Origin: Rhizobium indicum
GTDB taxonomy: Bacteria; Pseudomonadota; Alphaproteobacteria; Rhizobiales; Rhizobiaceae
NCBI RefSeq assembly: GCF_005862305.2
Contig: NZ_CP054025.1
Span: 248,001-312,000 of the forward strand
Length of the DNA stretch: 64,000 nt
Direction: 5' to 3'
A model generated the notes under the pieces. The model was not told where the DNA came from. It worked only from the letters and a program-made list of their open reading frames with translations, and did no database searches. Each line of letters starts with the position of its first letter. The first letter of the stretch is position 1. Shown here one piece after another: positions 12,870 through 30,744 of the stretch. Position numbers and translations under genes: made by a program.

Positions 12870-12883
12870 TGCTAACGTTAGCA
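12870..12883. promoter_or_regulatory. LacI-type operator TGCTAACGTTAGCA before ppc
   Basis: Perfect 14-bp palindrome TGCTAACGTTAGCA with the central CG typical of LacI-family sites. It lies 41 bp upstream of the ppc ATG. The same word or close variants recur before other operons of the island (15740, 22257, 27655, 29760, 30731), and a LacI-family gene is at 27970. Confidence 0.85.
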
Positions 12884-12924
12884 TTCGATGTGTTTCGTAT
12901 GAACGTCGTTTCAGGAAGAAAAAC

Positions 12925-15681
12925 ATGCATGGTAAGCGGCTCTCAGCCAGTAGGGCTTTGGTGAAGGACGTTCAGTTACTTGGCCGCCTTCTGTGCAATG
13001 CCATCGAGGCAACTGATGGCAAAGATGTACGAGAGGTCGTCGAACAGGTCCGAACAATCTCTGTGAATGACCATAGGAAGGCATGCTCCCGCCTATACGA
13101 CAAGCTGACCCCATTCTGCGCAGAAATGACACTACCGACTCTGAACCGCGTCATCAGGGCATTCAGTCAGTTCTCGCAGCTCGTCAATATTGCCGAAGAC
13201 TGTCATCAAGCGAGAATACAGCGGCTTGGTATTGTTGATGGAGCCTCTGAAATTCCCGGAACGGTCACCCGATCGCTTTCCGTCCTTGCGGCCGCCGGGG
13301 TGACTTCCCAGGACCTACGCACACTCATATCAGGGTTGATCATCTCACCGGTGTTCACGGCGCATCCCACGGAAGTGCGACGCAAGAGCGTCATCGACAT
13401 CGAGCAAGAGCTTTCAAAGTGCCTGTCGCAGCTCGACCAGGTCGGCCTGACAGACCAAGAGATAGGTTCCCATCAGAAGGATCTCGAAAGAGCGACCACG
13501 ACACTTTGGCAAACGAATAGTTTGCGAGGGCAAAGTCTAAGGGTTGTTGATGAGATCCTCAATGGCCTGTCCTATTACGACAGTACGATCTTAAGGGTGC
13601 TTCCAGAGGCTTACGAAACGCTGGAAACCCAGTTGCGAGCCGCTCCCTGGAACTTCGGCCAGGAGGCGCTGCCGCCATTCCTGCGTATGGGCTCCTGGAT
13701 CGGCGGCGACCGGGATGGCAATCCCTACGTTAATGGCGAGACCTTGAGAGAAGCGTTACGTCTTCAAAGCGAGAGAGTCTTCTCGTTCTACCTTGGCGAA
13801 CTCCACAGCCTTGGAGCTGAGCTCTCTCTGGATGATCGGTATGTAAACGTATCAACGGACCTTCGTCGCCTCGCGACCGACTCGCCTGATCGATCGGAGC
13901 CGCGCCGACACGAACCCTATCGCTTGGCCATCTCGGGCATGTACGCTCGGCTAGCGGCCACGGCCCGCAAGTTTGGAAGCACAGAGCTGGTTCGCAAGCC
14001 TGTCGCCACTGCCCCATGCTATGTCAATCCCGATGAGTTCAGCAAGGATTTGGCGACGATCAGCAAATCCCTCACGGCGAATGGGGCTGCAACCATCGCC
14101 TCCGGCAGATTACGAAAGCTGCAACGCGCAATCGACGTGTTCGGATTTCACCTTGTGAGCCTCGATCTGAGGCAAAATTCCGAGGTTCATCAGCGCGTTG
14201 TGCATGAGTTATTCGAAACCGTCAGGCCGGGTACCAACTATGAATCGCTCTCCGATGCCAAGAGGATGACATTGCTCACAGAGGAGCTCAGATCGTCTCA
14301 GCTGTTGATCACACCGCTCAAGGCCTATTCTGCGGAGACGACGTCCGAACTATCTGTCCTGCGTGAAGCCGCAGAAGCTCACAAGCGCTATGGCTGCGGC
14401 AGCATCCCGAACTACATCATTTCGAAAGCAGGAAGCCCATCGGACATCCTCGAGGTCATGGTACTCCTCCGAGAGGTAGGACTGTATAGGCCCGATGAGC
14501 CAAAGGCAGCATCCGTAAACATCATACCTCTTTTCGAGACGATCTCGGACCTCAGAAACTCCCGAGATGTGATGGAGACCACCCTGGCTGTCGACGGGTA
14601 CCGAGCGTACGTGAAAGCGCTCGGCAATAGACAAGAGATCATGCTTGGGTATTCCGACAGCAACAAGGACGGAGGATACCTTACCTCCGGATGGGAACTC
14701 TACAAGGCGGAGACTGCTTTCATTCTGCTTTTTGAGAAAGAAGGCATTCGCCTGAGTTTATTCCATGGTCGCGGTGGCTCCGTCGGCCGTGGAGGCGGTC
14801 CCAGCTATGAAGCGATCACTGCCCTGCCCCCGGGTGCAGTAGCCGGTTCGATTCGAGTGACCGAACAAGGTGAAGTGATCGCGGCGAAATATTCCAACCC
14901 GGACCTTGGACGTCGAAACCTTGAACTTCTGATCGCAGCGACACTGGAGGCTTCTCTTCTGCCGTCCGACGCGCAAGAGCCCAAACCGGGCTACCTCGAT
15001 GCCATGGAAGAACTGTCGGAACTTGCGTTCGACAGCTATCGCTGCCTTGTCTACAAGACCGACGGTTTTGAACGGTTCTTCTGGGAAGCCACGATCATTG
15101 GAGAAATCGCAAAGCTGAACATTGGCAGCCGTCCGGCATCTCGCAGCTCGTCAGGTCGCATTGAAGACCTTCGCGCAATACCGTGGGTGTTCGGCTGGTC
15201 GCAGAGCCGGATTATGTTGCCCGGTTGGTTTGGGTTCGGCTCTGCTGTCAAACAATGGCTTTCGTCACATCCCGACGGTCTGACGACCCTTCAGGCGATG
15301 TATCGCCATTGGCCTTTTTTCCGAACATTGATCGCCAACATGGAAATGGTCCTGGCCAAGACAAACCTGGCCATCGCCACCAGCTACGTCGATCTTGTCG
15401 CCGATTGCCCGTCCCACGAAACCATTTTTGCCCGCATAAAAGACGAATGGGCCGATACGGTGGGCGCCCTTCTCGGCATCACGGAACAGACTTCGCTCCT
15501 GGAGAATAATCCAGCGCTTAAACAGTCAATCTATCACCGCTTTCCATGCCTTGATCCTCTGAACTACATGCAAGTCGATCTCCTTCGTCGTCATCGCGCC
15601 GGAGAACGCGATCACGACACCGAAGAAGCACTGCATCTAACCATCAATGGCATTGCGGCCGCCCTTCGCAACAGCGGGTGA
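12925..15681 (+). CDS. ppc: Phosphoenolpyruvate carboxylase
   Basis: Carboxylates PEP with bicarbonate to oxaloacetate. The 918-residue protein has a complete active site: 'VFTAHPTEVRRKSV' (catalytic His), 'GSWIGGDRDGNPYV', 'LRQNSEVH', 'GYSDSNKDGGYL' (Lys loop), 'FHGRGGSVGRGGGPSYEA', and 'VFGWSQSRIMLPGWFG'. The C-terminal 'AAALRNSG' is the conserved terminus. ATG 12925 is chosen because AGGAAGA precedes it; the longer frame from 12856 would run through the operator. It stands alone behind a LacI-type operator, so here it appears to be a pathway-controlled enzyme rather than simple housekeeping anaplerosis. Whether another ppc exists in the genome cannot be seen. Confidence 0.97.
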   Translation: MHGKRLSASRALVKDVQLLGRLLCNAIEATDGKDVREVVEQVRTISVNDHRKACSRLYDKLTPFCAEMTLPTLNRVIRAFSQFSQLVNIAEDCHQARIQRLGIVDGASEIPGTVTRSLSVLAAAGVTSQDLRTLISGLIISPVFTAHPTEVRRKSVIDIEQELSKCLSQLDQVGLTDQEIGSHQKDLERATTTLWQTNSLRGQSLRVVDEILNGLSYYDSTILRVLPEAYETLETQLRAAPWNFGQEALPPFLRMGSWIGGDRDGNPYVNGETLREALRLQSERVFSFYLGELHSLGAELSLDDRYVNVSTDLRRLATDSPDRSEPRRHEPYRLAISGMYARLAATARKFGSTELVRKPVATAPCYVNPDEFSKDLATISKSLTANGAATIASGRLRKLQRAIDVFGFHLVSLDLRQNSEVHQRVVHELFETVRPGTNYESLSDAKRMTLLTEELRSSQLLITPLKAYSAETTSELSVLREAAEAHKRYGCGSIPNYIISKAGSPSDILEVMVLLREVGLYRPDEPKAASVNIIPLFETISDLRNSRDVMETTLAVDGYRAYVKALGNRQEIMLGYSDSNKDGGYLTSGWELYKAETAFILLFEKEGIRLSLFHGRGGSVGRGGGPSYEAITALPPGAVAGSIRVTEQGEVIAAKYSNPDLGRRNLELLIAATLEASLLPSDAQEPKPGYLDAMEELSELAFDSYRCLVYKTDGFERFFWEATIIGEIAKLNIGSRPASRSSSGRIEDLRAIPWVFGWSQSRIMLPGWFGFGSAVKQWLSSHPDGLTTLQAMYRHWPFFRTLIANMEMVLAKTNLAIATSYVDLVADCPSHETIFARIKDEWADTVGALLGITEQTSLLENNPALKQSIYHRFPCLDPLNYMQVDLLRRHRAGERDHDTEEALHLTINGIAAALRNSG

Positions 15682-15739
15682 CCAAACAGTGGAGCCGCGT
15701 TGTATCCGCCTATTTTCCTTGACCATAACAGGCATATTG

Positions 15740-15753
15740 CGCTAACGTTCGCA
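15740..15753. promoter_or_regulatory. LacI-type operator CGCTAACGTTCGCA
   Basis: Variant of the island operator, 20 bp before the 2-hydroxyacid dehydrogenase ATG. The flanked word ATTGCGCTAACGTTCGCACA is identical over 20 bp to the copy before the Liv transporter operon at 27651-27670, which argues strongly for a shared regulator. Confidence 0.85.
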
Positions 15754-15773: not shown

Positions 15774-16736
15774 ATGACACGCACCGTGCTGTTGACGGAC
15801 TATGCATGGCCGGATGACAAGGTGGAGCGGCAGACAATCGAAGGCGCCGGTTTCAGCCTGGTCAGCGGTCCCGCCAAGCCAGCTCCAGCTGCTGAAATCG
15901 AGGCATTGGCAGCTCAGCATCAGCCGGATGCGATTTTGACCTGCTGGGCTGAGGTCAGCGCCACCGCAATAGCGGCGTCACCTGCCCTCAAAATCGTCGC
16001 GCGTCTGGGTGTCGGATTGGACAACATTGCTGTCGATGCGGCCACAGAGCGCGGCATCTGGGTCACCAACGTGCCCGATTATTGCGTAGCAGAGGTTTCG
16101 GATCACGCCGTCGGATTCGCCATCGCTTGGGCTCGTGGTCTCATCCATTTTGACCGCGAAGTGCGTTCCGGGCGTTGGGATCCTGCCTCCGCCAATCTCC
16201 GTAGGCTGTCGGAACTCACCTGCGGCATCGCTGGCTTCGGTCGTATCGGTCGTGCGACCGCAGCAAAGATGCAGGCACTAGGATGCCGGGTATTGGCGCA
16301 CGACCCCTACACGTCCAATGCTCCCGACAATATCGAACTGGTCGATTTCGAAACCCTTCTTGCCAGCAGCGACATCGTCGTGATCCACACACCGCTGTCG
16401 CCTTCAACGCACCACCTGATCAATCGGGACGCGATCTCAAAAATGCGTCGGGGCAGCCTGTTGATCAACGTCAGCCGAGGCGGCGTCGTCGACACTGCCG
16501 CCGTCATCGAAGGACTGGCCTCCGGCATTTTAAGCGGCGTCGGCCTTGACGTCCTCGAGGATGAGCCGCGCATTCCGCCGGAATTGATTGCTCACCCTGG
16601 CGCGATGATCACTCCGCATGTCGCTTTCTCTTCGGACGCATCGCTTATCGAGCTGCGCCGACGTGCCGCGGAAGAAGTTGTCAGAGTTCTCTCTGGAGAG
16701 ATGCCTGAACAGCCCCGTAACAGCCCCCGCCGTTAG
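15774..16736 (+). CDS. D-isomer-specific 2-hydroxyacid dehydrogenase
   Basis: NAD(P)-dependent dehydrogenase for 2-hydroxyacids (hydroxypyruvate/glyoxylate reductase or phosphoglycerate dehydrogenase type), 320 residues. Visible motifs are 'VARLGVGLDNIAVDAATERG', the Rossmann 'GIAGFGRIGRATAAKM', 'IHTPLSPSTHHLI', 'LINVSRGGVVDT' (substrate-binding Arg) and 'LDVLEDEP'. The catalytic His is in 'MITPHVAF'. AGGAGG precedes the ATG by 8 nt. Its stop codon overlaps the kinase start (TAGTG), so the pair is one operon under the operator at 15740. A glycerate/hydroxypyruvate role is suggested by the enolase-like and PEP carboxylase genes of the same regulon, but the substrate is not proven. Confidence 0.92.
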   Translation: MTRTVLLTDYAWPDDKVERQTIEGAGFSLVSGPAKPAPAAEIEALAAQHQPDAILTCWAEVSATAIAASPALKIVARLGVGLDNIAVDAATERGIWVTNVPDYCVAEVSDHAVGFAIAWARGLIHFDREVRSGRWDPASANLRRLSELTCGIAGFGRIGRATAAKMQALGCRVLAHDPYTSNAPDNIELVDFETLLASSDIVVIHTPLSPSTHHLINRDAISKMRRGSLLINVSRGGVVDTAAVIEGLASGILSGVGLDVLEDEPRIPPELIAHPGAMITPHVAFSSDASLIELRRRAAEEVVRVLSGEMPEQPRNSPRR

Positions 16737-17755
16737 TGCCTCATAGGATCTTCAAATTCATGTCTGCAGCTGAGACGACGATTTTCGATGACTTCTTGCT
16801 GAGAAGCGGGCTGAAAGGTGCTTCGGAAAAAGCAGCATACAAGCCTCTGACGGGTGGTGTTTCTTCGGACATCTATCGGGTCGAACTTCCTGGGCGGATT
16901 CTTTGCGTAAAGCGTGCCCTCGCCAAGCTGAAAGTGGCTGCCGATTGGCACGCGCCGGTGTCTCGAAATGAGTACGAATGGAATTGGATCTCGTTCGTAG
17001 CTCAACATTTCCCCTCCGCTGTTCCGAAACCTCTCGCCCATGACGCATCGTCTGGCGTGTTTGCGATGGAATTCCTTCCCGGCGAAGAGTATCCGCTCTG
17101 GAAAGCCGATCTCCTCCAAGGCCACGCTGATCCAAAAGCGGCAGAGATTATTGGGCGACGGATCGGACAGATTCACTCTGTGAGCGCCCGCACACCCGGG
17201 CTACCGGCGAAATTCGACTCCGGCACCAACTTCTATGCTCTGCGGCTTGAGCCCTACCTGGTCGCAACCGCTGACAAACACCCCTTCGTCGGCGACCGCC
17301 TTTCAGACCTCGTGGGCCGCACTGCCGATACGAAGCTGGCACTCGTTCATGGTGATGTTAGCCCGAAGAACATTCTGCTGGGCAAGAGCGGGCCTGTCTT
17401 CCTGGATGCGGAATGCGCATGGTTTGGCGATCCCGCCTTCGATCTCGCCTTCTGCCTAAACCATCTCCTTTTGAAAAAGCTCGTTGTTGAGAAGGCGTCC
17501 CCTGAACTCGCAGCCTCCTTTGCGGCGCTGTCGTCTGCGTATCTCAACGAGGTCGATTGGGAAGATCGTGAAGCTGTCGAAGCTCGAGCAGCAAGTCTCC
17601 TGCCCGCCCTCTTCCTAGCCCGCGTCGATGGCAAATCGCCGGTCGAGTATGTGACGGAAGAAAGCCAAAGAATGCTTGTTCGCAAAACGGCTATCCCGTT
17701 GATCGCGTCACCCCGCACAAAACTGGCTGAAATCGCGCAAGCCTGGTTTTCCTAA
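16736..17755 (+). CDS. APH-fold small-molecule kinase, substrate unknown
   Basis: A 339-residue kinase of the aminoglycoside-phosphotransferase / choline-kinase fold. The catalytic loop is 'LVHGDVSPKNILLG' (Brenner motif with catalytic Asp) and the metal-binding Asp is in 'PVFLDAECAWFGDPAFDLAF'. The nucleotide-binding N-lobe contains 'LTGGVSSDIYRVE' and Lys in 'LCVKRAL'. GTG 16736 overlaps the dehydrogenase stop by one base; ATG 16760 is an alternative. Coupling to a 2-hydroxyacid dehydrogenase suggests it phosphorylates that enzyme's product or substrate, for example a glycerate-like acid, although known glycerate kinases are other folds. Antibiotic resistance is unlikely in this context. 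Confidence 0.85.
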   Translation: MPHRIFKFMSAAETTIFDDFLLRSGLKGASEKAAYKPLTGGVSSDIYRVELPGRILCVKRALAKLKVAADWHAPVSRNEYEWNWISFVAQHFPSAVPKPLAHDASSGVFAMEFLPGEEYPLWKADLLQGHADPKAAEIIGRRIGQIHSVSARTPGLPAKFDSGTNFYALRLEPYLVATADKHPFVGDRLSDLVGRTADTKLALVHGDVSPKNILLGKSGPVFLDAECAWFGDPAFDLAFCLNHLLLKKLVVEKASPELAASFAALSSAYLNEVDWEDREAVEARAASLLPALFLARVDGKSPVEYVTEESQRMLVRKTAIPLIASPRTKLAEIAQAWFS

Positions 17756-18089: not shown

Positions 18090-18644
18090 TCACTTGAACC
18101 GAGCGAGCCACACCTCAAACGCGGCCAGAAAGGTTTCGATGAATTTCTGCGTCCCTTCGTTGAGAATCTCCCCATTATCGCCCACCAGCTTGTCCGCCCC
18201 GCTGAGATATACTTCCGGCTGCGGCAAGGTGGGAACGTTGATGTTGGTGAGAATAACTCGGAGCTGAAGCGCCGCGACGGCACCACCAATGAGACCGGGA
18301 GAAGCGCTGGTTATTGCGCCGGGTTTATGGTCCCACACGCTTTTTCCGTAGGGCCGAGACCCGACCTCGATTGCGTTCTTCAGAACAGCAGGTACCGACC
18401 TGTTGTATTCAGGGGTCACAAAAATCACCCCGTCGCAGCTTTTGATACGTTCGCGAAAAGACGTCCATGCCACAGGAGACGTCTCGGCGTCCAGGTCTTG
18501 ATTGTAGAGCGGGAGATCGCCGATCGGCACGATTTCCAGATTTAAATTGTCCGGCGCCACTCTCTGCATCGCACGAGCCAATTTCAGGTTGATCGAAGCC
18601 TGTCGAAGACTACCGACCAAGACCGCAACATCTTTCTTGGACAT
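18090..18644 (-). CDS. NAD(P)H-dependent FMN reductase (ChrR/azoreductase-like)
   Basis: Flavodoxin-fold quinone/FMN reductase, 184 residues from ATG 18644, which has AAAAGGG upstream. The FMN phosphate-binding loop is 'VLVGSLRQASINLKLA', and 'FVTPEYNRSVPAVLKNAIE' is the family's flavin-binding signature. 'HKPGAITSASPGLIGG' follows. It is last in the - strand series that starts at the dioxygenase. In an aromatic-type catabolic island it may feed reduced flavin to an oxygenase or scavenge quinones. A second copy of the family lies at 35004-35555. Confidence 0.93.
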   Translation of the reverse strand: MSKKDVAVLVGSLRQASINLKLARAMQRVAPDNLNLEIVPIGDLPLYNQDLDAETSPVAWTSFRERIKSCDGVIFVTPEYNRSVPAVLKNAIEVGSRPYGKSVWDHKPGAITSASPGLIGGAVAALQLRVILTNINVPTLPQPEVYLSGADKLVGDNGEILNEGTQKFIETFLAAFEVWLARFK

Positions 18645-18665
18645 GTTTTCCCTTTTCGCGTCGGG

Positions 18666-18698: not shown

Positions 18699-19826
18699 TC
18701 AATGCGACGTTGGAACCGGAGGAATGATGACGTAATTGCTGAAGCCGCCATCGCGTTCGCCGATGCCGGAAATCGCTTCATTCACCCGCTCAAGAGGATA
18801 GATTTTGTGCTCAAGGTACGAAAGGTCCAGCGCACCCGTCGCCACCATATCCGCCATTTCCTGCCCTTGCGCAGCGGTGAACCAATTGGAACCGATGAGC
18901 TGGACTTGCTCGTCCATCAGCCACTTCACGTCGACCGGAACATCCTCGGAGACCCCGCCAACGACAACCACGCGACCGCCCCGACGAACGCCGCGCATGG
19001 AGTCGATCATGGTAGATGCCGGTGCCCTGGCACCCAAAGCACTGATAACGAAGTCGGCGCCTTCGCCGCCGGTCTGGGCCTTCGCCCATTCTCCGGTCGA
19101 GCCCTCCCCGAGCACGATCGTGTCGATACGATCAGGGGCGATAGCCTTTATGCGATCGAGCAGTTCCTTGCTTCTGCCTGTTCCAAGGATCTTGGAAAGA
19201 CCCATTGCGAGGCCGAGCTTCGTTGCGGCGAGGCCAAGGGTGCCAGTGATCCCATCGATGAGGCCAACCTGACCAGGCCCAGCTTGCGCATTTTTCAGAG
19301 CGCCATAGGAAGTACCGAGATAGCCGAAGCGGCCCGCCTGTTCAAAGCTAAGGTTGTCCGGCAGGCAGACAAGTGAATATTCCGGCGCGGTCATGTACTG
19401 GCTGAAACCGCCATATGGGTAAAGGTCGAAGATCCTCTGACCATCGCGGCTGGTACTGAAGTAGCCGTTCAAGGTATAGTAACGGCATTGGCTGCGATGG
19501 CCGGACCGGCACGCCTTGCAGGAACCACAGGACCTGAGTGGGCTCACATAAACCCGGTCCCCGACCCTGACATTCGTAACCGCCTCACCAACTTCGGCAA
19601 CCACACCGGCAGGGTCCAGGCCAAAAACAGCCGGAAGTTTCGGCAGCGGCTGGTGCGGAAACCACGTTGGCCAGTTATTAATGACATTTGCCATGTTCGG
19701 AACGATACCGCAGGCCCTGACCTGTACAAGGACGTCGCTGGGCCGGGGCTTCGGAACCGGGATCTCGTCCAACGACATCGGCTGATGCAGTGCATGCAAC
19801 CGAGCTGCGATCATAGTCTTAACCAT
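18699..19826 (-). CDS. Zinc-type medium-chain alcohol dehydrogenase (altered catalytic site)
   Basis: A 375-residue MDR-superfamily oxidoreductase. Four structural-zinc cysteines are seen in 'CGSCKACRSGHRSQC' (residues 100-114). The catalytic-zinc site looks degraded: 'ACGIVPNM' keeps Cys39, but the usual 'GHE' motif is replaced by 'FGLDPAG' (68-74). The cofactor domain has 'GLIDGITGTLGLAATKLGLA', similar to GxGxxG-type loops, and 'GRVVVVGGVSEDVPVD'. ATG 19826 is chosen because GGAGGAG lies 7 nt upstream, although the frame extends further. It follows the substrate-binding protein gene on the same strand. It may act as a non-zinc reductase or a dehydrogenase on a bulky substrate; the substrate is unknown. 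Confidence 0.88.
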   Translation of the reverse strand: MVKTMIAARLHALHQPMSLDEIPVPKPRPSDVLVQVRACGIVPNMANVINNWPTWFPHQPLPKLPAVFGLDPAGVVAEVGEAVTNVRVGDRVYVSPLRSCGSCKACRSGHRSQCRYYTLNGYFSTSRDGQRIFDLYPYGGFSQYMTAPEYSLVCLPDNLSFEQAGRFGYLGTSYGALKNAQAGPGQVGLIDGITGTLGLAATKLGLAMGLSKILGTGRSKELLDRIKAIAPDRIDTIVLGEGSTGEWAKAQTGGEGADFVISALGARAPASTMIDSMRGVRRGGRVVVVGGVSEDVPVDVKWLMDEQVQLIGSNWFTAAQGQEMADMVATGALDLSYLEHKIYPLERVNEAISGIGERDGGFSNYVIIPPVPTSH

Positions 19827-19925
19827 TAACTCCTCCATAGGGCGCACCGGCCGGGCCTCGCCCGACCGACTGCATCTTTGCTGTTTCATAAAAGTTTGCT
19901 CGGCAAAGCACCGAAGCAATATTCG

Positions 19926-21140
19926 TTAGGGTGCGAGAAACTTCGCCTCGGCCGGACGGAATTCGGTGGGCCAAACGGTGACCCAATCATTTCCTTGGAC
20001 CTGCTTGAGTTTCGTCGACTGCTTCCCGGCATTGAATTTGCCCTCGAAGGTTCTCGGGCCTACGACGGTTTCCACCGTATTGGACCGCAGCCAGGCAGCC
20101 ATTGCTGCATCGTCGAACTTTCCTGCGCCTTCTGCCGCCGCGGCAAGGATTTGCCATGCAGCGAATTCGACAGCAGCCTGATATTCGGTGCGCGGATACG
20201 GGAAACCTGCAGCCTTCGCACTGTTGTTGTAGGCGGTCACGAACTCCTGGGCACCCGGATACGAAAGGAAGGGCTCCTGCGCTTCAAACCAGGTCAGCGA
20301 GGTCAAACCGTTGGCCTTGGGATGGGCGGCAGTCGGGCCTGGAGCCGGGAAGAGATAAAATTGGTTCCTCGGCTGGTAGTCGATGCGGCTCATTGCATCG
20401 AGGAGCTGGACGGCCTCCATACCAATGGCACCTGACCACAGTAGATCCGAATCGGCTGCCTTGATGCGGTTTGCGATTGCGCCGAAATCCTTCGTGCCGA
20501 ACTCGTACTCAAGGCTGAGAACATTCTCGATTCCGCGCCTCTCGGCAACTTCTTGCCCGCCCTTTGCGATCGTCAGCGCGGAGGGGAACTTGCTGGTGAT
20601 AAATGCGATCGTCTTCGGAGGGTTCGGAAGGCTCGTATAGGCATCCAAAACCACTTCCGAGTCCGTGAGATGGGGTTCAGGTCCGATCGGAAGGGACGGG
20701 AATTGCAGTGGATATGGCGCGAGACTCGGGTCACCCAAGCTGCTCTGAATAAGGAGTTTCTTGAAGCGTTGAGCGACACCCATCGCCGCAATGATCGAGG
20801 ACGTGCCATAAGGGCCCATCAGCAGATCAACCTTGTCGGCAGTTACCAGGCGTTCGTAGAGCGTGCGAGCGTTCGCAGGAAGCGACTGGTCGTCGAGCAG
20901 AACGAATTCTACTTTGCGGCCCAGGATACCACCCTTGGCATTAATCTGCTCGACAAAGACATTCGCCGCGAGCTTATGGATTGCGCCCACGCCAGCAAGC
21001 GGGCCTGTCAACGGTAGCGTGCCACCTACCCGGATGGGCGTCTCCTGTGCAAACGCGCTTGGCATCGAGCTAAAAACTGCCGCTGCTGCTGCAGAACCCA
21101 GAAACGACCTTCTGTTCATTTTAATGGAATTCACACTCAT
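19926..21140 (-). CDS. Liv-type ABC transporter substrate-binding protein
   Basis: Periplasmic receptor of the type I 'Peripla_BP_6' class used for branched-chain amino acids, amides and aromatic acids; 404 residues. The N-terminus carries a twin-arginine-like signal 'NRRSFLGSAAAAAVF' and an AQE cleavage region. The mature start 'TPIRVGGTLPLTGPLAGVG' is typical, as is 'INAKGGILGRKVEFVLLDD'. ATG 21140 is supported by GGGAGGATGAG. It should pair with the LivH/LivM-G/LivF genes 3 kb upstream, although the dioxygenase, enolase-like and cupin genes lie between. The combination with ring-cleavage-type enzymes suggests an aromatic or cyclic acid ligand. Confidence 0.93.
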   Translation of the reverse strand: MSVNSIKMNRRSFLGSAAAAAVFSSMPSAFAQETPIRVGGTLPLTGPLAGVGAIHKLAANVFVEQINAKGGILGRKVEFVLLDDQSLPANARTLYERLVTADKVDLLMGPYGTSSIIAAMGVAQRFKKLLIQSSLGDPSLAPYPLQFPSLPIGPEPHLTDSEVVLDAYTSLPNPPKTIAFITSKFPSALTIAKGGQEVAERRGIENVLSLEYEFGTKDFGAIANRIKAADSDLLWSGAIGMEAVQLLDAMSRIDYQPRNQFYLFPAPGPTAAHPKANGLTSLTWFEAQEPFLSYPGAQEFVTAYNNSAKAAGFPYPRTEYQAAVEFAAWQILAAAAEGAGKFDDAAMAAWLRSNTVETVVGPRTFEGKFNAGKQSTKLKQVQGNDWVTVWPTEFRPAEAKFLAP

Positions 21141-22238: not shown

Positions 22239-22256
22239 ATCATCCTCATCCATCTT

Positions 22257-22270
22257 TGCGAACGTTAGCA
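22257..22270. promoter_or_regulatory. LacI-type operator TGCGAACGTTAGCA before the dioxygenase gene
   Basis: Thirteen of 14 bases match the TGCTAACGTTAGCA consensus. It sits 19-32 bp upstream of the preferred dioxygenase start. It implies a second promoter inside the - strand run, since the upstream enolase-like gene ends 66 bp away. Confidence 0.8.
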
Positions 22271-23652: not shown

Positions 23653-23699
23653 GTTCAAATGGTCCACATAGTCAGATTGAAATTTGCGTTTCCGATAGG

Positions 23700-24293
23700 T
23701 CAAAGACCGTCTTCATAGTCCTGCTCATCAGGCGTTCGTGCACCAATCAGAACCACTGCTATGGTCGCTGGTTTGTCGCTCTTGTTGCGCCAGGCATGGC
23801 GCGTTCCGTTCTGCACAAACGTGTCGAATTGCCCCAGACGGGTCTCGTTGCCGTTGTCGAGTTCCATCCAGATCTCCCCGTCGAGCACGATTCCGTAATC
23901 GACCGTCGGAGTTCGATGTTTGCCATCTGGCTCGAAGCGCTCAGCCAGCCCAGGACTGACGGCCAGATTTTCGGCCATTGCCGCTTGCGGGTCAAAATCA
24001 GGCGAGGCGAACACGGTATCTGGTGGGAACGTTAGCACTAAGAACCGTGTTTCTCCGGGCTCGGGAACGAAGTCCGTAACCAATGGAGTGGGATCGGTTC
24101 CGTCAAACGGAATAGCGGTCGACGACCGTGTCGCCCAAATCATTCGCGAGACCAGACCGGGGATGGACTTGAACACGTCTGTCCTCGGTGGAGTGCCGTC
24201 CTGAGAAAAGGTGGCGTGCCCCCTCATATCGTGTTCCGTGACCACGCGTCGAATGTTGATCGGCAGTTTGCCGTTTGAGTTGTCAGATGCCAA
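23700..24293 (-). CDS. Cupin-domain protein
   Basis: A 197-residue single-cupin protein. The conserved barrel reads 'DYGIVLDGEIWMELDNG' then 'GQFDTFVQNGTRHAWRNKS', with His of 'KHRTPTVDY' and His of 'TRHAW' as candidate metal ligands. I start it at TTG 24293, because GGGAGG lies 6 nt upstream inside the end of livF and the protein then begins MASDNSNGKLP. It overlaps livF by 11 bp, so translation is coupled. Such cupins often accompany FAH-type hydrolases in aromatic-degradation loci, where their enzymatic role is rarely known. Confidence 0.88.
   Translation of the reverse strand: MASDNSNGKLPINIRRVVTEHDMRGHATFSQDGTPPRTDVFKSIPGLVSRMIWATRSSTAIPFDGTDPTPLVTDFVPEPGETRFLVLTFPPDTVFASPDFDPQAAMAENLAVSPGLAERFEPDGKHRTPTVDYGIVLDGEIWMELDNGNETRLGQFDTFVQNGTRHAWRNKSDKPATIAVVLIGARTPDEQDYEDGL
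24024..24037. promoter_or_regulatory. Operator-like site inside the cupin gene
   Basis: TGGGAACGTTAGCA matches 12 of 14 bases of the island operator, but lies within cupin coding sequence. It could be a roadblock, an auxiliary site for DNA looping, or a promoter for the enolase-like gene 370 bp downstream. Chance coding-sequence similarity is also possible. Confidence 0.4.
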
Positions 24294-24990
24294 GGTATGC
24301 CTCCCTGATGCTTGGATCATTGATGAGAACTTGAGGCAGCCCGGACGCAGTCACGCGACCCTGTTCAAACACATAGGCTTGATGCGCGATCTCAAGGGCC
24401 TTGTTTACGTTCTGCTCGACGAGCAGCACGGCCACTCCCCGCTCATTGATCATCTGGATGATCTTGAACATGTCCCCGACAATCAGCGGCGATAGGCCTA
24501 ACGACGGTTCATCCATGAGGAGGATGCGAGGCTTTGCCATGAGGCCCCGACCAATGGCAACCATCTGCTGCTGGCCCCCTGACAATGAGCCCGCCAGCGA
24601 ATCCTGGCGATCTCTCAACACCGGAAACAGCTTGAAGACTTCCGCAAGAGTGGCATTTCGGTCGGCTCGGGCTGCGGATCGGAAAGCGCCGAGCAGGAGG
24701 TTATCCAACACGGTCATTTCCGTGAAAAGACGACGACCTTCCGGGACGATGGCGATGCCGTAGTCGCAAACGCGATGACTTGGAACCTTGGAAACATCAT
24801 TCCCCTCTATAACAATCTTCCCTTTGCGCGGACGTAAGATACCGGCGATGGCGTTTACAAGAGTGCTCTTCCCTGCTCCGTTCGGACCGACGACGGAAAC
24901 GATCTCACCCGGCTTTACGCTGATAGAAACATCCCAGAGAGCGGTGGCGTCGCCGTAACCGACTTCAACATTTGCGACTTCAAGCAGCAT
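24283..24990 (-). CDS. LivF-type ABC transporter ATPase
   Basis: Cytoplasmic ATPase of a branched-chain-amino-acid-type importer, 235 residues from ATG 24990. Walker A is 'GPNGAGKSTLVNAI', the signature is 'LSGGQQQMVAIGRGLMAKP', and Walker B is 'ILLMDEPSLGLSP'. The start overlaps the LivG end by 11 bp and the stop overlaps the cupin by 11 bp, so it is tightly coupled in the operon livH, livM-G, livF, cupin, enolase-like. Substrate is set by the receptor at 19926. Confidence 0.94.
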   Translation of the reverse strand: MLLEVANVEVGYGDATALWDVSISVKPGEIVSVVGPNGAGKSTLVNAIAGILRPRKGKIVIEGNDVSKVPSHRVCDYGIAIVPEGRRLFTEMTVLDNLLLGAFRSAARADRNATLAEVFKLFPVLRDRQDSLAGSLSGGQQQMVAIGRGLMAKPRILLMDEPSLGLSPLIVGDMFKIIQMINERGVAVLLVEQNVNKALEIAHQAYVFEQGRVTASGLPQVLINDPSIREAYLGI

Positions 24991-26727
24991 GACCGCCCCC
25001 CAGATATACACTGATGACCGCTGGATCTCGCATCGTTTCGGTCGGCTGTCCGAGGGCAAGAACCTTGCCCTGATCCAGCACGGCGACACGGTCTGCGAGT
25101 GCGACGACGGCCCTCATTAGGTGCTCAACGAAGATAATCGTCGTGCCACCGGCCTTAATTCGCTTGATCATTTCAACAGCGTGGTCGATCTCAGCCGGAT
25201 TCAGGCCACAGAGCACCTCGTCGAGTAAGAGAAGACGAGGTTTGGCGGCGAGTGCTCTTGCGAACTCGACAAACTTCCTGTCGTGGAGATTCAGGGCCTC
25301 GGGAAGCACGTTGGCCTTTTCCGCCAGTCCAGTGTAGACGAGAGCGGCCTTGGCAACCTCATCGGCACCAGCCACGCCCATGCCGCTCACGCTACCGAAC
25401 TCCGCACAGATCCGCACGTTCTCAAGGACCGTGAGATTATTGAACAGACGGGGATCTGATACGTACGCGCAATGCCGCTCTGAGCGATCTGATGAGGTGA
25501 TTTGCCGGAGATCTGTTCTCCTTCAAGCGTAATGGTACCGGAAGTCATGGCGTAGTGGCCGCTGATCATGTTGATCAACGTCGACTTGCCGGAACCATTT
25601 GGGCCCACCAGGGCAAGGATTTCCCCCCTCTGGACGTCCAGCGTTACCCCGTTCAGGGCGCGAAGACCGCCGAATGATTTGGTGACGTCTTCGCACTTCA
25701 AAAGGACAGGGCTCGAACTTCCATTGGTGGCCGGCGAGAGGTGGGCGGCTACTTGAGTGATCCTGTCACTGCCTCCCAGTCCACTACGCTTGTCGGCAAA
25801 CTTGCGGAGAATGCTCGGGACGATACCGGACGGCAGCACGAGGATCACGATAATCAGCGCAAGAGCCACGCCAGCACGGCCAAATTCCGCATGAGCACCG
25901 CTGACGATGGCACTTTGAAGCACGGTGATGATAGCCGCACCGATCGCAGGGCCTGCCCAGTGGCGAGCACCGCCAAGAATGCTCATGAGGACCACATACA
26001 GCGGGACCGTTACCGCAAAGGTCTCGCCGACAGTAACATAGCCGACATAGACGGCGTGGATCGCGCCCATTCCACCTGCGAGCGCCGACGACACCGCGAA
26101 GGAGAACAGCTTGTAGCGGAACGTTGGTACGCCCTTCACTTCAGCAACGTCCTCATCGTCGTGGATTGCGAGCAGCCCTTGGCCAAATTTGCTGTGAAAG
26201 ATGAAGTATGACGTCGCCAATGCGATCAAAGCCGCGATGAGCCCAAACAGGTATAGAGAGCCCGACGCCGTAACCCCGATCATCGGAATCTCGATGCCCG
26301 AAAGGAAAACTCCTGTCCCTGAATCCAGCGAGGTGTTGGAAACGATCGCCGCCACAACGAATGTCACCGACAGCGTCAGCAGAGCAAAGAACTCTCCGCG
26401 CAGGGATCTGGAGCGAAAGACCACCAGGCCAACGAGAACCGCAACGACCGCAGCGAGAAGTGCGGCAGCCGGTATCGTGGCGATGAACGGCCAGGAAAAC
26501 TGGGTAGCAAGAGTGGCCGTCGTATACACGCCAATTCCGAAAAATGCGGCGTGTCCGAAGCTCCAATAACCCGTGTAACCACTGAGGATGCCCCAGCTCG
26601 TTGCCAGGACGACCCAGAAGAAGATGATATAGAGATAGGAAAGGTAATAGTCAGCCAATCCAAGATAAGGCAGCGAGGCCAAAACCGCCAATACCGGCGC
26701 CGTGATCAGAAGCTTTTTCATAGTCAT
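24980..26727 (-). pseudogene. LivM-LivG permease/ATPase fusion, frameshifted near 25450
   Basis: One continuous frame from ATG 26727 encodes a LivM-type permease (about 330 residues, multiple membrane segments, 'GYTGYWSFGHAAFFGIGVY'). It runs without a stop into a LivG-type ATPase (Walker A 'GPNGSGKSTLINMI'). After 'GIARTYQIP' the frame is lost: the expected 'RLFNNLTVLENVRICAEF' continues in the next frame down to 24980, which holds the signature region and Walker B 'LLLLDEVLCGLNP'. One extra C in the CCCC run at 25450-25453 (GGGG on +) would restore it. So this is a fused gene with a 1-nt deletion, either genuine or a homopolymer sequencing error. If genuine, the importer is inactive. Note also 'HDRKFVEFARAL' where 'LSxGQ' is usual. 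The start overlaps livH in an ATGA. Confidence 0.85.
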
Positions 26728-27569
26728 ATCACCGGTTTGCGCAGGAGGATGACAATGAGCACGCTGAATGCCACGAGCGGCGCCCAAGCAGGATTCACCA
26801 CAGTCATCGTGAGGCTCTCGGCCAGACCGATCAGCATCCCGGCTGCCAATGCACCCGCGGGGCTACCCAATCCTCCAATAATAGCGACAGCAAAGACAAC
26901 TCCGATCCAGGACTCGATTTGTGAGGGCGCCAATGTCCCGATCAAGGCAATGAATACTCCCGCGATACCGGCAATGGCCGAGCAAAGGCCTGCTAGGATG
27001 TATGACACGCGGGTAGAGTTGATGCCGAAAGCGGAGGCGACGGAGGGGTCATGGGCGGCGGCACGCAGTGCTTTGCCGAGCATAGTTTTGTTCAACGCGA
27101 TCCAAGCGGCTCCCGCCAGCAGCACCGCGCAAACGAACGCCGACAAATCCAGCACGGGGACGAAGATCGAACCAATGCGAAAAGTGGTCTGTGCATAGGG
27201 CGTTTCGTAGCGGAGGAAGTCCGCCGACCAGATCCACTGAATCAGCGACTCGATCAGGATCGTGACACCGAAGGTAACCAATAGCGAGGCGAACTCCTTC
27301 ACCTTGAAGCGGACAAACACGCTATGAAGGGCAATGCCGAATAGGAAGAACAGCGGAGCTATCAACAGCGCACTGAGATATGCCGGAATACCGTGCACGG
27401 TTCCGAGTTCATAGGTTAGATAGGCACCAAGAAAGGCCAGAGCAAAATGGCTGAGATTTACGAGCTTTAGCAGACCCCAGCTCAGGCTGAGCCCCATCGC
27501 TAGCAGGCCGTAAATTCCCCCGAGCAAAATACCGCCGACCGCGGACTGCAAGAAAAGAGTGGCGGTCAT
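26724..27569 (-). CDS. LivH-type ABC transporter permease
   Basis: Inner-membrane permease of the Liv-type importer, 281 residues with about eight hydrophobic segments. 'GGILLGGIYGLLAMGLSLSW' and 'KLVNLSHFALAFLGAYLTY' form the typical LivH N-terminus, and 'GVVFAVAIIGGLGSPAGALA' the conserved cytoplasmic loop. The ATG at 27569 overlaps the stop of a 22-codon leader frame (ATGA) and has no strong Shine-Dalgarno of its own, so translation probably depends on that leader. The operon is behind the operator at 27655. Confidence 0.93.
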   Translation of the reverse strand: MTATLFLQSAVGGILLGGIYGLLAMGLSLSWGLLKLVNLSHFALAFLGAYLTYELGTVHGIPAYLSALLIAPLFFLFGIALHSVFVRFKVKEFASLLVTFGVTILIESLIQWIWSADFLRYETPYAQTTFRIGSIFVPVLDLSAFVCAVLLAGAAWIALNKTMLGKALRAAAHDPSVASAFGINSTRVSYILAGLCSAIAGIAGVFIALIGTLAPSQIESWIGVVFAVAIIGGLGSPAGALAAGMLIGLAESLTMTVVNPAWAPLVAFSVLIVILLRKPVI

Positions 27570-27654: not shown

Positions 27655-27668
27655 CGCTAACGTTCGCA
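27655..27668. promoter_or_regulatory. LacI-type operator CGCTAACGTTCGCA before the Liv operon
   Basis: The same 14-mer as at 15740, with identical flanks over 20 bp. It lies 21 bp upstream of the leader ATG and 86 bp upstream of livH. Confidence 0.85.
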
Positions 27669-27928: not shown

Positions 27929-27942
27929 TGCTATCGTTGGCT
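27929..27942. promoter_or_regulatory. Degenerate operator before the LacI-family gene
   Basis: TGCTATCGTTGGCT matches 11 of 14 positions of the island consensus and lies 28 bp upstream of the regulator ATG. It is a candidate for autoregulation by a weaker site. Confidence 0.4.
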
Positions 27943-27969: not shown

Positions 27970-28980
27970 ATGGTAACAATCAAAGACATCGCAGCAATAC
28001 TGCAAGTTTCACCATCGACCGTAGGACGCGCTCTTGCTGATGATCGGCGCATCAGCGCTGAAATGAAGCGGAAGGTGAACGAAGCGGCAACTCAAGTGGG
28101 ATATGTCGCCAATCAGGCGGCCCGCATGATGCGCGGCGTTGAGAGCAATTTGGTTGGCCTGATCGTACCAGATATTCGGAACAGCTTTTATTCGACTATC
28201 GCTCACGCCCTCTCCCGCTGCCTTCTCTCTGCGAACTACCAGCTGACGCTTTGCGAAACGGATGACGATCGTCTGCTTGAGCTCCGTCACATCAAGGAGC
28301 TGACGAGTGTAAACGTAGCCGGGATAATCTTGGTCCCGAGCGCGAAACCTCTTCCCGACTCCGCTCGGTTTTTGAAGATGACCCCTCACATTCAACTGCT
28401 ACGGAAGCAACAGCTGCTTGGCGAGCAATGGTTCGGCATCGATGACAGGCGAGCGCTCTACGAAAGCACAATGCACATCTTGAGCGAAGGTCATCGACGG
28501 ATCGCTTACATCGGCGGTACAGAAGCTTTGCCAACAGGTGCAGCCCGCGTTCAAGGATTCCGGGAAGCGGTCAAAACCTCTTCTCATCAGATTGACACCT
28601 ACGAGGAACTCGGCGCGCCCTCGTCGCCAGAGTTCGGCAGGGAAGCCGTACGACGACTGCTGTCCCTGAAAGAGCGGCCCACGGCCCTCGTGATCGGTGC
28701 CGTGCAGAATACATCAGGCGTTATCGATGAGATACAGGATCAGGCGTTGAGCGTACCGCGAGATATTTCAGTCGTCGGCTTTGGAGATGAACTCGGGTAT
28801 CGGTGGTGGGGGCCAGGATTAACAACGGTACAGCTGCCTGTTTCGCAGCTCGCGACCGCTTGTGGACTTTGGTTCCTGCACCACCTTCAGAATAAGGGCG
28901 ACCTAGACACGCCATACAGCTTCATATCTCCACCCCAATTGATTGTTCGAGGCAGTACGGCCGCACCATCCAATCATTGA
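27970..28980 (+). CDS. LacI-family transcriptional regulator of the catabolic island
   Basis: A 336-residue repressor. The N-terminal helix-turn-helix is 'VTIKDIAAILQVSPSTVGRA' (residues 2-21), followed by 'VGYVANQAARMMRG', the hinge helix. The periplasmic-binding-protein-like core has 'LVGLIVPDIRNSFYSTIA' and the C-terminal 'DISVVGFGDE'. LacI-family proteins bind palindromes with a central CG, and TGCTAACGTTAGCA sites flank this gene's neighbourhood on both sides. It is divergent from the Liv operon and ends at a strong hairpin. The effector is unknown; a pathway intermediate is likely. Confidence 0.93.
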   Translation: MVTIKDIAAILQVSPSTVGRALADDRRISAEMKRKVNEAATQVGYVANQAARMMRGVESNLVGLIVPDIRNSFYSTIAHALSRCLLSANYQLTLCETDDDRLLELRHIKELTSVNVAGIILVPSAKPLPDSARFLKMTPHIQLLRKQQLLGEQWFGIDDRRALYESTMHILSEGHRRIAYIGGTEALPTGAARVQGFREAVKTSSHQIDTYEELGAPSSPEFGREAVRRLLSLKERPTALVIGAVQNTSGVIDEIQDQALSVPRDISVVGFGDELGYRWWGPGLTTVQLPVSQLATACGLWFLHHLQNKGDLDTPYSFISPPQLIVRGSTAAPSNH

Positions 28981-29027: not shown

Positions 29028-29144
29028 CTAAGTCTACTTCCTACCCGCCGCCGCGACCTCGAACAAGGACGCTATGAGCTCGAAATAACCGGCGCACAAC
29101 ACAGAAACCAGACTAACTTGAACTAGCAGGGAGATCCACGAGCG

Positions 29145-29681
29145 CTACTTCTTGTATGCGTCCTCGAGATCAATTTTCAATGCGCCCATCAACCGCACGC
29201 CAGAATTGTACCAGGCAACGTTGATCGCCAATTCGACCAACTGCTTCTCGGAAAGGAATTTGGCGACCTCGTTCCAAACCTCGTCGGAGACATCGACATT
29301 TAGAGTGGAGTCCTTGGCGAAGGCCATGACCGCCTTTTCCTCTTCAGAAAAAAGGTCGGAGGTCTCGAAATAACGAATGGCTTGGAACTGCTCTTCGGTG
29401 AGTCCTGCCTTCAGCCCGTGCGAATGGTGATGAACGATCTCATATTCCGAGTTGGTGCAGTACCCCACGGTTAGGATCGCCATCTCCCTCAACTTCGGAC
29501 TGAAGTCGGCAGCGCGAACTGCGTTGGCATAAGTCAAGAAGTCATTCAAAATTGCTGGCGCGTTCGCCAGTGCTAGAAAAATGTTTCCTGTCGGCACCTT
29601 TCTTTCCGCAAGCAGGCGCCCATTGAGTGCCGCTTGCGTTTCTGCCAATTCCGAATTCGGAACGTATCTAACTCGCGCCAT
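29145..29681 (-). CDS. Carboxymuconolactone-decarboxylase-family (AhpD-like) protein
   Basis: A 178-residue CMD-domain protein. ATG 29681 has GAGGG upstream and gives the N-terminus 'MARVRYVPNSEL'. The core 'LREMAILTVGYCTNSEYEIV' followed by 'HHHSHGLKAGLTEEQ' matches the CMD fold, but has one Cys instead of the AhpD CxxC, so thiol peroxidase activity is unlikely. It is a single gene behind the perfect operator at 29760. Family members act as decarboxylases, hydratases or unknown enzymes in aromatic catabolism; here the reaction is not identifiable. Confidence 0.9.
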   Translation of the reverse strand: MARVRYVPNSELAETQAALNGRLLAERKVPTGNIFLALANAPAILNDFLTYANAVRAADFSPKLREMAILTVGYCTNSEYEIVHHHSHGLKAGLTEEQFQAIRYFETSDLFSEEEKAVMAFAKDSTLNVDVSDEVWNEVAKFLSEKQLVELAINVAWYNSGVRLMGALKIDLEDAYKK

Positions 29682-29759
29682 TTCTCTACCCTCAGCTTGT
29701 CTCGACAATTTTCACCATTCAAGCGCCAGAAAACGGTTAGCAGCAAAAATCCAACGTAG

Positions 29760-29773
29760 TGCTAACGTTAGCA
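29760..29773. promoter_or_regulatory. LacI-type operator TGCTAACGTTAGCA before the CMD-family gene
   Basis: Perfect 14-bp palindrome identical to the ppc site, 79 bp upstream of the CMD-family start. A looser half-site with the sequence ACGGTTAGCA lies between it and the gene, near 29733-29742. Confidence 0.85.
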
Positions 29774-29899
29774 TTAGTATCACCCGGCAATATGAAGTCA
29801 ACCAAATTCTTCTCCTGCCAACATATAGGCGAGACTCCGGGTCACGCCCCTTGGAGTTGGCAATCGCCACAGTTAGAGCGGGCTACGGCTGATGCGGAG

Positions 29900-29926
29900 G
29901 GGCACCGATATCTGCGGTGCCCTTTT
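29900..29926 (+). terminator. Intrinsic-terminator-like hairpin on the + strand
   Basis: GGGCACCG (29900-29907) and CGGTGCCC (29915-29922), 7-nt loop, followed by TTTT. The U-tract orientation is for + strand transcripts, yet no + gene ends here. The hairpin also lies just beyond the stop of the - strand FAH gene, where it would lack a U-tract. Confidence 0.6.
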
Positions 29927-29942
29927 GAAGCTGTGGATGGGC

Positions 29943-30716
29943 TCAATATGCCGCAGCAACCACTGGATTCTTCAAAATGCCTATGCCGGGGATTTCCACT
30001 TCAAGATCATCACCTGGATTGATCGGGCCGACCCCAGCGGGCGTGCCTGTCATGATCACATCGCCTGGCAAAAGCGTCATGAAGCGGCTCAGATAAGCGA
30101 CGATGTCAGCCACAGAGTAAACTAGGTCGCTGGTGTTTCCGGACTGCTTGATGGTGCCATTTTGACGAAGAATGACGTCGAGATTCGCCGGATCAAGGTC
30201 GGTTACGATCGCCGGACCCATGGGCGCAAAGGTATCGTATCCTTTGCCCGCCAAAAGGCAGCCAAACTTGCTTTCCTGACGCTGGATGATGCGGTCGCTG
30301 ATGTCGTTGCCGCATGTATATCCAAGGACATGACCAAGCGCATCGTCATTGCTAATGTGTCGACCACCCTTCCCAATGATCGCGACCAGCTCAGCCTCGT
30401 AATGTACGATTTCGCCGTCTCGCGGAAATTCGATCGGATCTCCATTGCCGCTCGCCGCAGTGCTAGGCTTCATAAACAGGACCGGCAGTGTCGGCTGCTC
30501 TTTCCCGGACTCGTTGGTGTGCTCTCGGTAATTGTATGCCACGCCAAAAATGCGCGGACGATTGACCGGGCACAGCAGGCGAACTTCGGACAAATCGTCC
30601 ACCTTTCCAGTCCTCTCTATGGCGCTGAAGGGTTCACCAGCGATGCGCTGGACGCTGTCACCGTCCTCGACCCCATAGTGAATCCCATCGGCCGCCTCGT
30701 ATCGCACAATCCTCAT
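29943..30716 (-). CDS. Fumarylacetoacetate-hydrolase-family protein
   Basis: A 257-residue FAH-fold enzyme that splits or decarboxylates beta-diketo or hydroxy-keto acids, such as ring-cleavage products. Signatures are 'RIFGVAYNYREHTNESGK', the metal-binding 'EIVHYEAELVAIIG' (ExE), 'GYTCGNDISDR' and 'KGYDTFAPMGP'. 'LLPGDVIMTGTPAGVGP' is the conserved C-terminal element. AAGGAG lies 7 nt before the ATG. It is transcribed away from the operator at 30731 and is the natural partner of the extradiol dioxygenase in the same regulon, as HpaG-type enzymes are to HpaD. Confidence 0.93.
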   Translation of the reverse strand: MRIVRYEAADGIHYGVEDGDSVQRIAGEPFSAIERTGKVDDLSEVRLLCPVNRPRIFGVAYNYREHTNESGKEQPTLPVLFMKPSTAASGNGDPIEFPRDGEIVHYEAELVAIIGKGGRHISNDDALGHVLGYTCGNDISDRIIQRQESKFGCLLAGKGYDTFAPMGPAIVTDLDPANLDVILRQNGTIKQSGNTSDLVYSVADIVAYLSRFMTLLPGDVIMTGTPAGVGPINPGDDLEVEIPGIGILKNPVVAAAY

Positions 30717-30730
30717 CTCGATCTCCTTTT

Positions 30731-30744
30731 TGCTAACGTTAGCG
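30731..30744. promoter_or_regulatory. LacI-type operator TGCTAACGTTAGCG in a divergent promoter
   Basis: Thirteen of 14 bases match the consensus. It is 14 bp upstream of the FAH-family start on the - strand and 154 bp upstream of the GlcG-like gene on the + strand, so one bound repressor could control both directions. Confidence 0.85.

Follow-up and report, generated by a model that had tools for sequence, protein, structure and literature searches.

A plasmid-borne catabolic island of Rhizobium indicum and its predicted control by one LacI-family repressor

Gene content of the island

The stretch of Rhizobium indicum DNA analysed here (the window, 64 kb, bases 248001-312000 of the 313 kb contig 5 in a genome of 7.53 Mb) carries a plasmid-borne island of 18 kb, in which catabolic genes are found together with the gene of a LacI-family regulator and with copies of one short palindrome, TGCTAACGTTAGCA. 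An earlier reading made from the sequence alone (the sequence-only reading) had taken six intergenic copies as the signal of one LacI regulon contained in one island. The comparative evidence given below supports this proposal and suggests that one LacI-family repressor very probably switches the whole island via this one word. The genes of the island are as follows (window coordinates and strand).

12925..15681, +, phosphoenolpyruvate (PEP) carboxylase (NF000584, 1113.7 bits, above the cut-off of 815)
15774..16736, +, D-2-hydroxyacid dehydrogenase family protein (PF02826/PF00389)
16760..17755, +, APH-fold small-molecule kinase (PF01636)
18090..18650, -, NADPH-dependent FMN reductase family protein, end of the dioxygenase operon (PF03358)
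18699..19829, -, MDR zinc-type alcohol dehydrogenase (ADH) family protein (PF08240/PF00107)
19926..21140, -, Liv-type periplasmic binding protein (SBP; PF13458)
21237..22247, -, HpaD-like extradiol dioxygenase (1f1r-like; TIGR02295, 275.5 bits, below the cut-off of 321.4)
22336..23655, -, enolase with two changed active-site residues (TIGR01060, 485.2 bits, cut-off 300)
23700..24320, -, cupin-domain protein (PF07883)
24283..24990, -, LivF-type ATPase (profile search)
24980..26727, -, LivM-LivG fusion with an interrupted frame (two open reading frames (ORFs), 25387-26787 and 24980-25417)
26724..27569, -, LivH-type permease (profile search)
27970..28980, +, LacI-family regulator (PF00356, PF13377)
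29145..29681, -, CMD/AhpD-family protein (PF02627)
29943..30716, -, FAH-family hydrolase (PF01557; nearest solved sequence the HpaG-type bifunctional enzyme 1gtt)

These genes form seven predicted controlled units, namely PEP carboxylase; dehydrogenase-kinase; dioxygenase-SBP-ADH-FMN reductase; livH-livMG-livF-cupin-enolase; lacI; CMD; and FAH. The sequence-only reading had listed PEP carboxylase, the dehydrogenase/kinase pair, the Liv importer, the dioxygenase, CMD and FAH, all of which are retained, and had missed the enolase, the cupin gene, lacI and the SBP, ADH and FMN reductase genes downstream of the dioxygenase. The PEP carboxylase is the sole one found in the genome (a single genome match). 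The LivM-LivG frame is split here and is a single ORF of 582-668 aa in all 11 Rhizobium relatives; the split is either a real inactivation or a sequencing error.

Copies of the palindrome in the window and the genome

The six palindromes are present at 12870, 15740, 22257, 27655, 29760 and 30731, where the sequence-only reading had placed them, with no mismatch to TGCTAACGTTAGCA at 12870 and 29760, one at 22257 and 30731, and two at 15740 and 27655. The last two are identical over 20 bp (ATTGCGCTAACGTTCGCACA), as the sequence-only reading had stated for two of its copies. At up to three mismatches, the window has 11 matches, compared with 1.23 ± 1.02 in 100 shuffles. When mismatches to TGCTAACGTTAGCA were counted genome-wide, eight places were found at up to two mismatches in the entire 7.53 Mb, seven of them inside the 18 kb island, as against 45 places for the reversed control word. 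Many equally good sites at unrelated genes, which would speak against a regulon, are thus not seen. The eighth place (C1:742010) falls where a 501-aa ORF starts and is flanked by two same-strand ORFs. The island also shows the arrangement of a local regulon, with targets near the regulator gene: besides the seven of eight places in this genome, 65 of the 68 places at up to one mismatch in 17 named genomes of relatives are on the island or its contig pieces. Both the mismatch search and a matrix built from 71 sites at 18 loci outside Rhizobium give an even palindrome with a central CG, as in LacI-family operators.

At three mismatches the word is unspecific (71 places in the genome), so weaker sites need other evidence. 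The match at 20864 (three mismatches) was rejected as an operator, being unconserved (at least four positions differ in nine of ten relatives and one position in the other), and the site at 43468 was left out of the operator set with a low matrix score of 6.4. Two further sites, at 24024 (two mismatches) and 27929 (three mismatches), are supported by relatives, and the earlier statement that the word does not occur elsewhere in the window is modified to that extent. The nominal ORFs 12856 and 22271 each overlap a site; the operators at 12870 and 22257 are considered intergenic because the likely gene starts are 12925 and 22247. The proposed operators are as follows.

Operator 1, 12870..12883, before PEP carboxylase (TGCTAACGTTAGCA, no mismatch; TTGAC 30 bp upstream)
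Operator 2, 15740..15753, before the dehydrogenase-kinase operon (two mismatches; TTGAC 21 bp upstream)
Operator 3, 22257..22270, before the dioxygenase operon (one mismatch; TTGACA 24 bp upstream)
Probable operator 4, 24024..24037, intragenic, in the cupin gene (two mismatches; in the longest invariant codon run)
Operator 5, 27655..27668, before livH-livMG-livF-cupin-enolase (two mismatches; TTGACA 30 bp upstream; footprint in 12 Rhizobium)
Operator 6, 27929..27942, over the -10 box of lacI (three mismatches; TTGACA-16-TATCGT; TTGACA 19 bp upstream)
Operator 7, 29760..29773, before the CMD gene (no mismatch; TTGACT 28 bp upstream)
Operator 8, 30731..30744, before FAH (one mismatch; TTGACG 21 bp upstream, in the FAH direction only)

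In the matrix ranking of the window, the six original sites are the top six (24.0-31.6), followed by 24024 (17.6) and 27929 (10.8); among 40 random sequences, the mean of the maxima is 10.2 and the largest is 16.9.

Promoter layout and conservation of the operators

Each of the seven intergenic operators has a TTGAC box, oriented toward the gene, at a distance of 19-30 bp upstream; this would place the operators on or just past the -10 region, so that repression is expected. Across all loci, TTGAC is present in 55 of 128 oriented flanks in Rhizobium (6 when shuffled) and in 52 of 142 elsewhere (10 when shuffled), counts in which related genomes repeat the same sites. Three of the seven sites end 42-86 bp from the start codon and four are at 10-28 bp. 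Operator 1 is kept before ppc in two relative loci (L057 and L063). This layout bears on whether the LacI protein might be an activator or a dual regulator here, given that activation of some genes is predicted for PckR, a LacI-family protein of Rhizobiales (PMC4052901); with every intergenic operator downstream of TTGAC and on or past the -10 region, as in repressor promoters, we regard activation as very unlikely.

The layout also bears on operator 8, which the sequence-only reading had connected with two periplasmic proteins (30899 and 31422). The site belongs to FAH: its TTGAC box faces FAH only, no such box was found toward the HbpS-like gene at 30899, and operator 8 is retained in eight of ten Rhizobium loci in whose stretch read neither gene was found. 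The genes at 30899 and 31422 were accordingly rejected as members.

Footprinting was based on 12 Rhizobium sequences (the window and 11 relatives). The stretch upstream of lacI is poorly conserved among them, except for the livH-side operator, a TTTGACA block, the 27929 site and the gene start. At 27929, the 13 bases TGCTATCGTTGGC are identical in all 12 sequences, and in the window they cover the -10 box of the lacI promoter (TTGACA, 16 bp, TATCGT). The site thus has the position of an operator over the regulator's own promoter, as in other local regulons, and its conservation is good evidence for predicted autoregulation of lacI.

The evidence for 24024 as an additional operator is suggestive, and we are less sure of it than of 27929. 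It is located within a run of five codons, including the less used leucine codon CTA, that is the longest invariant run in the 12 Rhizobium cupin genes (the next is of four codons); among 123 codons with invariant amino acids, 35 are invariant. That 24024 is merely conserved coding sequence has a substantial, if smaller, chance: a TTGAC box at a fitting distance was not found, and outside Rhizobium the mapped cupin genes contain no site at up to two mismatches.

Joint occurrence of the LacI regulator and the word

The 27970 product has the helix-turn-helix and the periplasmic-binding-protein-like core of the LacI family (PF00356, 38.9 bits, cut-off 27; PF13377, 85.8 bits, cut-off 26.5). Its closest named LacI is that of R. 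chutanense (98% identical), and its near relatives are from Rhizobium. Orthologs were found at 17 genome loci and in 14 plasmid records. The word at up to two mismatches is found near the LacI gene in all 17 genome loci and in all eight plasmid loci read of the 14 (Rhizobium N324, Pararhizobium A13, two Cupriavidus, Paraburkholderia PGU19, two Rhodococcus and Sphingobium TomTYG74), the Rhodococcus form being TGCTA(A/T)CGATAGCA. Comparison of helix and sites in relatives, as the sequence-only reading had suggested, shows that LacI, helix and word travel together from Rhizobium to Burkholderia, Sphingobium and Rhodococcus. Among 297 genomes of the family (LacI at E ≤1e-100; clustered sites defined as at least three at up to one mismatch), LacI is present in three, identical to the three with clustered sites (P = 2.3e-7, Fisher's exact test). 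None of the other 294 reaches three sites, and 17 of them have one or two scattered matches.

It could be argued that the word is read by another regulator, either another LacI protein or an island LysR, with the 27970 product as a bystander, since the genome holds 45 LacI domains and LysR genes are present at 11873 and 33528. This is hardly credible, given the identical presence of word clusters and 27970-type LacI in the 297 genomes and the constant pairing of LacI with the word, despite varying neighbour genes, from Rhizobium to Rhodococcus. No other LacI of the genome is more than 34% identical to the 27970 product. Among 11 that were compared, eight align over the helix, none of them with STVGRAL, and three gave no alignment.

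The recognition helix S-x-S-T-(V/I)-G-R-A-L is common to all 25 aligned LacI proteins. In Roseibium and Paracoccus, a LacI protein 30-31% identical with the helix SHMTVSRAL is encoded beside a kinase-enolase-FAH cluster; the palindrome there is TGTTCACGTGAACA, and the island word is not found there at up to two mismatches. A 42% identical LacI in a genome of the same order keeps SVSTVGRAL and has TGCGAACGTTCGCA directly before its gene, and near a 35% identical LacI with the helix AHSTVSRAL no site at up to two mismatches is found in its 18 kb. Helix and operator thus covary at the level of sequence. The Roseibium and Paracoccus clusters (L061:11881-16150 and L062:9850-14173) include sugar ABC transporters, and the 42% identical LacI (L121:16138-17191) has a kinase-enolase-FAH run nearby, together with TRAP transporter and TPP-enzyme genes.

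Several observations weigh against the regulon as proposed. The matrix score of the lacI site at 27929 (10.8) is within the null, and the case for this site comes from footprinting; the training sites of the matrix were chosen by likeness to the word, so that its ranking is not independent and serves as a consistency check. Three of the 68 places at up to one mismatch in relatives are off the island. The first, in Ensifer BR816 (one mismatch), precedes by 41 bp an FMN-reductase gene with 60% identity to that of the window (L046:6262-7011), which suggests that the word may follow a member gene; the second, in Paraburkholderia panacisoli (one mismatch), precedes by 17 bp a different LacI gene with 27% identity (L056:5298-6407); and the third is at locus L058. 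Ramlibacter WS9 keeps the genes and LacI, yet the 21 kb read contain a single site, with two mismatches, and its genome has no site at up to one mismatch. The three concordant genomes of the family are all of one genus and are not independent events, and two of them match the R. ecuadorense and Rhizobium CF122 genomes of the named set in contig numbers and coordinates and are not independent of that set. Likewise, 11 of the 25 LacI proteins sharing the helix are from Rhizobium and do not count as independent. Taking these points into account, we still hold with high confidence that the 27970 product is a repressor acting through eight operators, with release by an inducer, on one catabolic island.

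The enolase and its kinase partner

The island enolase matches its family profile over the full length, above the cut-off, and has D and A where the housekeeping enolase of the genome has E and H. We take these positions to be E167 and H369 in E. coli numbering, and presumably their yeast counterparts are E168 and H373, near the 3-hydroxyl of 2-phosphoglycerate. Not all substrate-contact residues are therefore retained, although S39, H158, E208, D245, E289, D316, K341, R370, S371 and K392 are kept (E. coli numbering). Glu168 is named among the substrate-site residues in a passage of PMC10245427. D and A are found in all 25 enolases from the island (window included), its relatives and the Roseibium and Paracoccus clusters, and in all 19 loci of a second set, two of which repeat genomes of the first and 17 of which are new.

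Among 347 genomes of the order (enolase at E ≤1e-150, kinase at E ≤1e-75, thresholds that would miss remoter members), the enolase is present in 29, the kinase in 28 and both in 27 (P = 9e-37, Fisher's exact test, with genomes of one genus not independent). Outside the genus, 24 genomes have both; by their coordinates, kinase and enolase are neighbours in 23 of these and on two different contigs in the 24th, and the kinase precedes the enolase in all 12 loci fetched; in the window genome they are in separate operons. From this co-occurrence and adjacency, the enolase very probably takes the product of the kinase as its substrate. The neighbours of the pair in other genomes indicate no common substrate. 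The kinase model (pLDDT 93) is nearest in fold to 5-methylthioribose kinase in the PDB (TM 0.82 for the two best, 13-17% identity), and a role as a drug-resistance enzyme was rejected (APH_3p, 20.2 bits against 205).

What the pair acts on can be explained in two ways. An ordinary route from D-glycerate via 2-phosphoglycerate to PEP, with the two substitutions neutral, has nearly an even chance in our estimation. The other catalytic and metal residues of the enolase are kept, and dehydrogenase, kinase, enolase and PEP carboxylase follow one another as in the serine cycle. However, every member examined has the two substitutions, which the housekeeping enolase lacks, and the kinase matched no glycerate-kinase model in Pfam or NCBIfam at E ≤0.001. 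More tentatively, the APH-fold kinase and the E167D/H369A enolase might belong to an undescribed pathway and use a substrate other than plain 2-phosphoglycerate, such as a 2-phospho-3-substituted acid, or a 3-O-substituted glycerate with an alcohol expelled instead of water; the PEP released would then be drained by PEP carboxylase to oxaloacetate.

Related clusters and neighbouring genes

In the gene maps of relatives (approximate for GC-rich genomes, where a codon-usage caller was used), the same gene set recurs in variable order. Genes for the dehydrogenase and kinase lie close to lacI in those Rhizobium stretches that extend far enough (L057 and L063), Pararhizobium, Ensifer, Microvirga, Burkholderia OK233, Cupriavidus, Paraburkholderia PGU19, Ramlibacter, Duganella, Pseudoduganella, Rhodococcus and Sphingobium; the LacI contig of P. 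panacisoli is too short to judge. The Ensifer BR816 region read has PEP carboxylase, LacI, dehydrogenase and kinase, with kinase and ADH each as two ORFs and a short SBP piece. The transporter type differs among relatives (Liv, MFS or TonB), the Rhodococcus cluster includes an HsaA-like flavin monooxygenase (146 bits, cut-off 450), and the PEP carboxylase-like protein of Sphingobium is remote (65 bits). In Duganella radicis, operator-preceded runs contain a chemotaxis receptor after the kinase gene and an alpha-rhamnosidase-like gene after ADH (L052:3096-4691 and L051:17631-19769).

The operon at 6606-11756 adjoins the island and a LysR gene and encodes a succinate-glutarate CoA-transferase homologue (579.5 bits against 750), an ETF-ubiquinone oxidoreductase (ETF-QO), a 3-hydroxybutyryl-CoA dehydrogenase and an acyl-CoA dehydrogenase. 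It is probably the other branch of the same pathway, but no operator match at up to three mismatches was found nearby, so that the earlier claim of copies before every operon does not extend to it. An ETF-QO homologue is found in the LacI cluster of Burkholderia OK233, and sites flank a 3-hydroxybutyryl-CoA dehydrogenase gene in Sphingobium. The 553-aa flavoprotein at 7851-9512 was rejected as a ring hydroxylase (the NCBIfam reading), being an ETF-ubiquinone oxidoreductase by Pfam.

Other neighbours in the window are a GDP-mannose 4,6-dehydratase and GDP-L-fucose synthase pair (4056-6222), LysR genes at 11873 and, by sequence, at 33528, and an MFS transporter ORF (32523-33539) whose matches to its best families begin only at about position 51 of the profiles. 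The relative locus L010 has a 397-aa ORF, and that of the window may be truncated or start elsewhere.

Discussion

Sequence comparison establishes the sites, where they lie, how they are conserved, and that LacI, helix and word are inherited jointly; from this we infer binding, repression and an inducer. A dimer of the 27970 product would bind an even palindrome of the half-sites TGCTAAC and GTTAGC(A/G) at eight operators (with less certainty at the intragenic one), no place of comparable quality with a likely function being expected elsewhere in the genome. At the seven others, on or just past the -10 box of sigma-70-type promoters, the bound repressor would block RNA polymerase and so transcription of PEP carboxylase, dehydrogenase-kinase, dioxygenase-SBP-ADH-FMN reductase, the Liv importer-cupin-enolase operon, CMD, FAH and lacI itself, until an inducer, probably a pathway intermediate, releases it. 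In the pathway, we expect the extradiol-type enzyme to cleave an aromatic ring of plant origin, and the FAH-type hydrolase to yield a dicarboxylate together with a three-carbon 2-keto acid. The keto acid could be converted to PEP by reduction (dehydrogenase), phosphorylation (kinase) and an enolase-type elimination, and then to oxaloacetate by PEP carboxylase; the dicarboxylate might be burned by the operon at 6606-11756. The rhamnosidase, monooxygenase and extradiol-type enzyme together suggest, from gene content, a plant phenolic as the substrate, perhaps a flavonoid glycoside.

No published description of this operator or gene set was found among the matches listed. The regulon is a new local one of a well-known kind, and the surprise is what is regulated. 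Like the local LacI regulons of the RegPrecise reconstruction (PMC4052901), it has an even palindrome with a central CG, predicted autoregulation (reported there for 72% of LacI regulators) and a regulator inside the controlled cluster. Most sites in that reconstruction are 140-30 bp from the start codon (PMC4052901), like three of our seven intergenic sites (42-86 bp), whereas the other four (10-28 bp) are nearer. Unlike those regulons, the present one controls an aromatic-type catabolic island, and the words "aromatic" and "glycerate" are absent from the text of PMC4052901. PckR is likewise a rhizobial LacI-family regulator of genes around PEP; according to PMC4052901, it is global, controls pckA and central sugar genes and is mostly apart from its targets, whereas here one island with PEP carboxylase and an accessory enolase is controlled.

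The dioxygenase resembles HpaD and the FAH-family protein HpaG of the homoprotocatechuate pathway, although the TIGR02295 score (275.5) is below the cut-off for HpaD. Aligned with 1f1r, the dioxygenase has LDH, MHH and HRVE, which supply a His-His-Glu triad that we take to be the metal ligands. It differs from the solved enzymes at residues aligned with a second-sphere histidine and a C-terminal arginine of those enzymes. LacI control sets the island apart from the homoprotocatechuate pathway, in which, to our knowledge, kinase, enolase and PEP carboxylase have no part. The serine cycle has the segment HprA, glycerate 2-kinase, enolase and Ppc, and the island would share its reaction types, from a three-carbon 2-keto acid to oxaloacetate; it differs by its APH-fold kinase and the two substitutions of its enolase, and no C1 genes were recognised among the profiled island genes. 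A glyoxalase-type dioxygenase is also found in flavonoid A-ring cleavage (fde/ifc clusters), but LacI and enolase do not occur in the PMC11069340 text.

These results link some 15 genes with a single catabolic pathway, present in legume symbionts as well as in other soil bacteria, whose substrate a single lacI deletion or an inducer screen could reveal. The regulator-operator pair, with matched variants of helix and operator in several classes and two phyla, would be useful for studies of LacI specificity. Furthermore, the enolases annotated as plain phosphopyruvate hydratase appear to include an overlooked subfamily in which two active-site residues are changed and a kinase is the regular partner.

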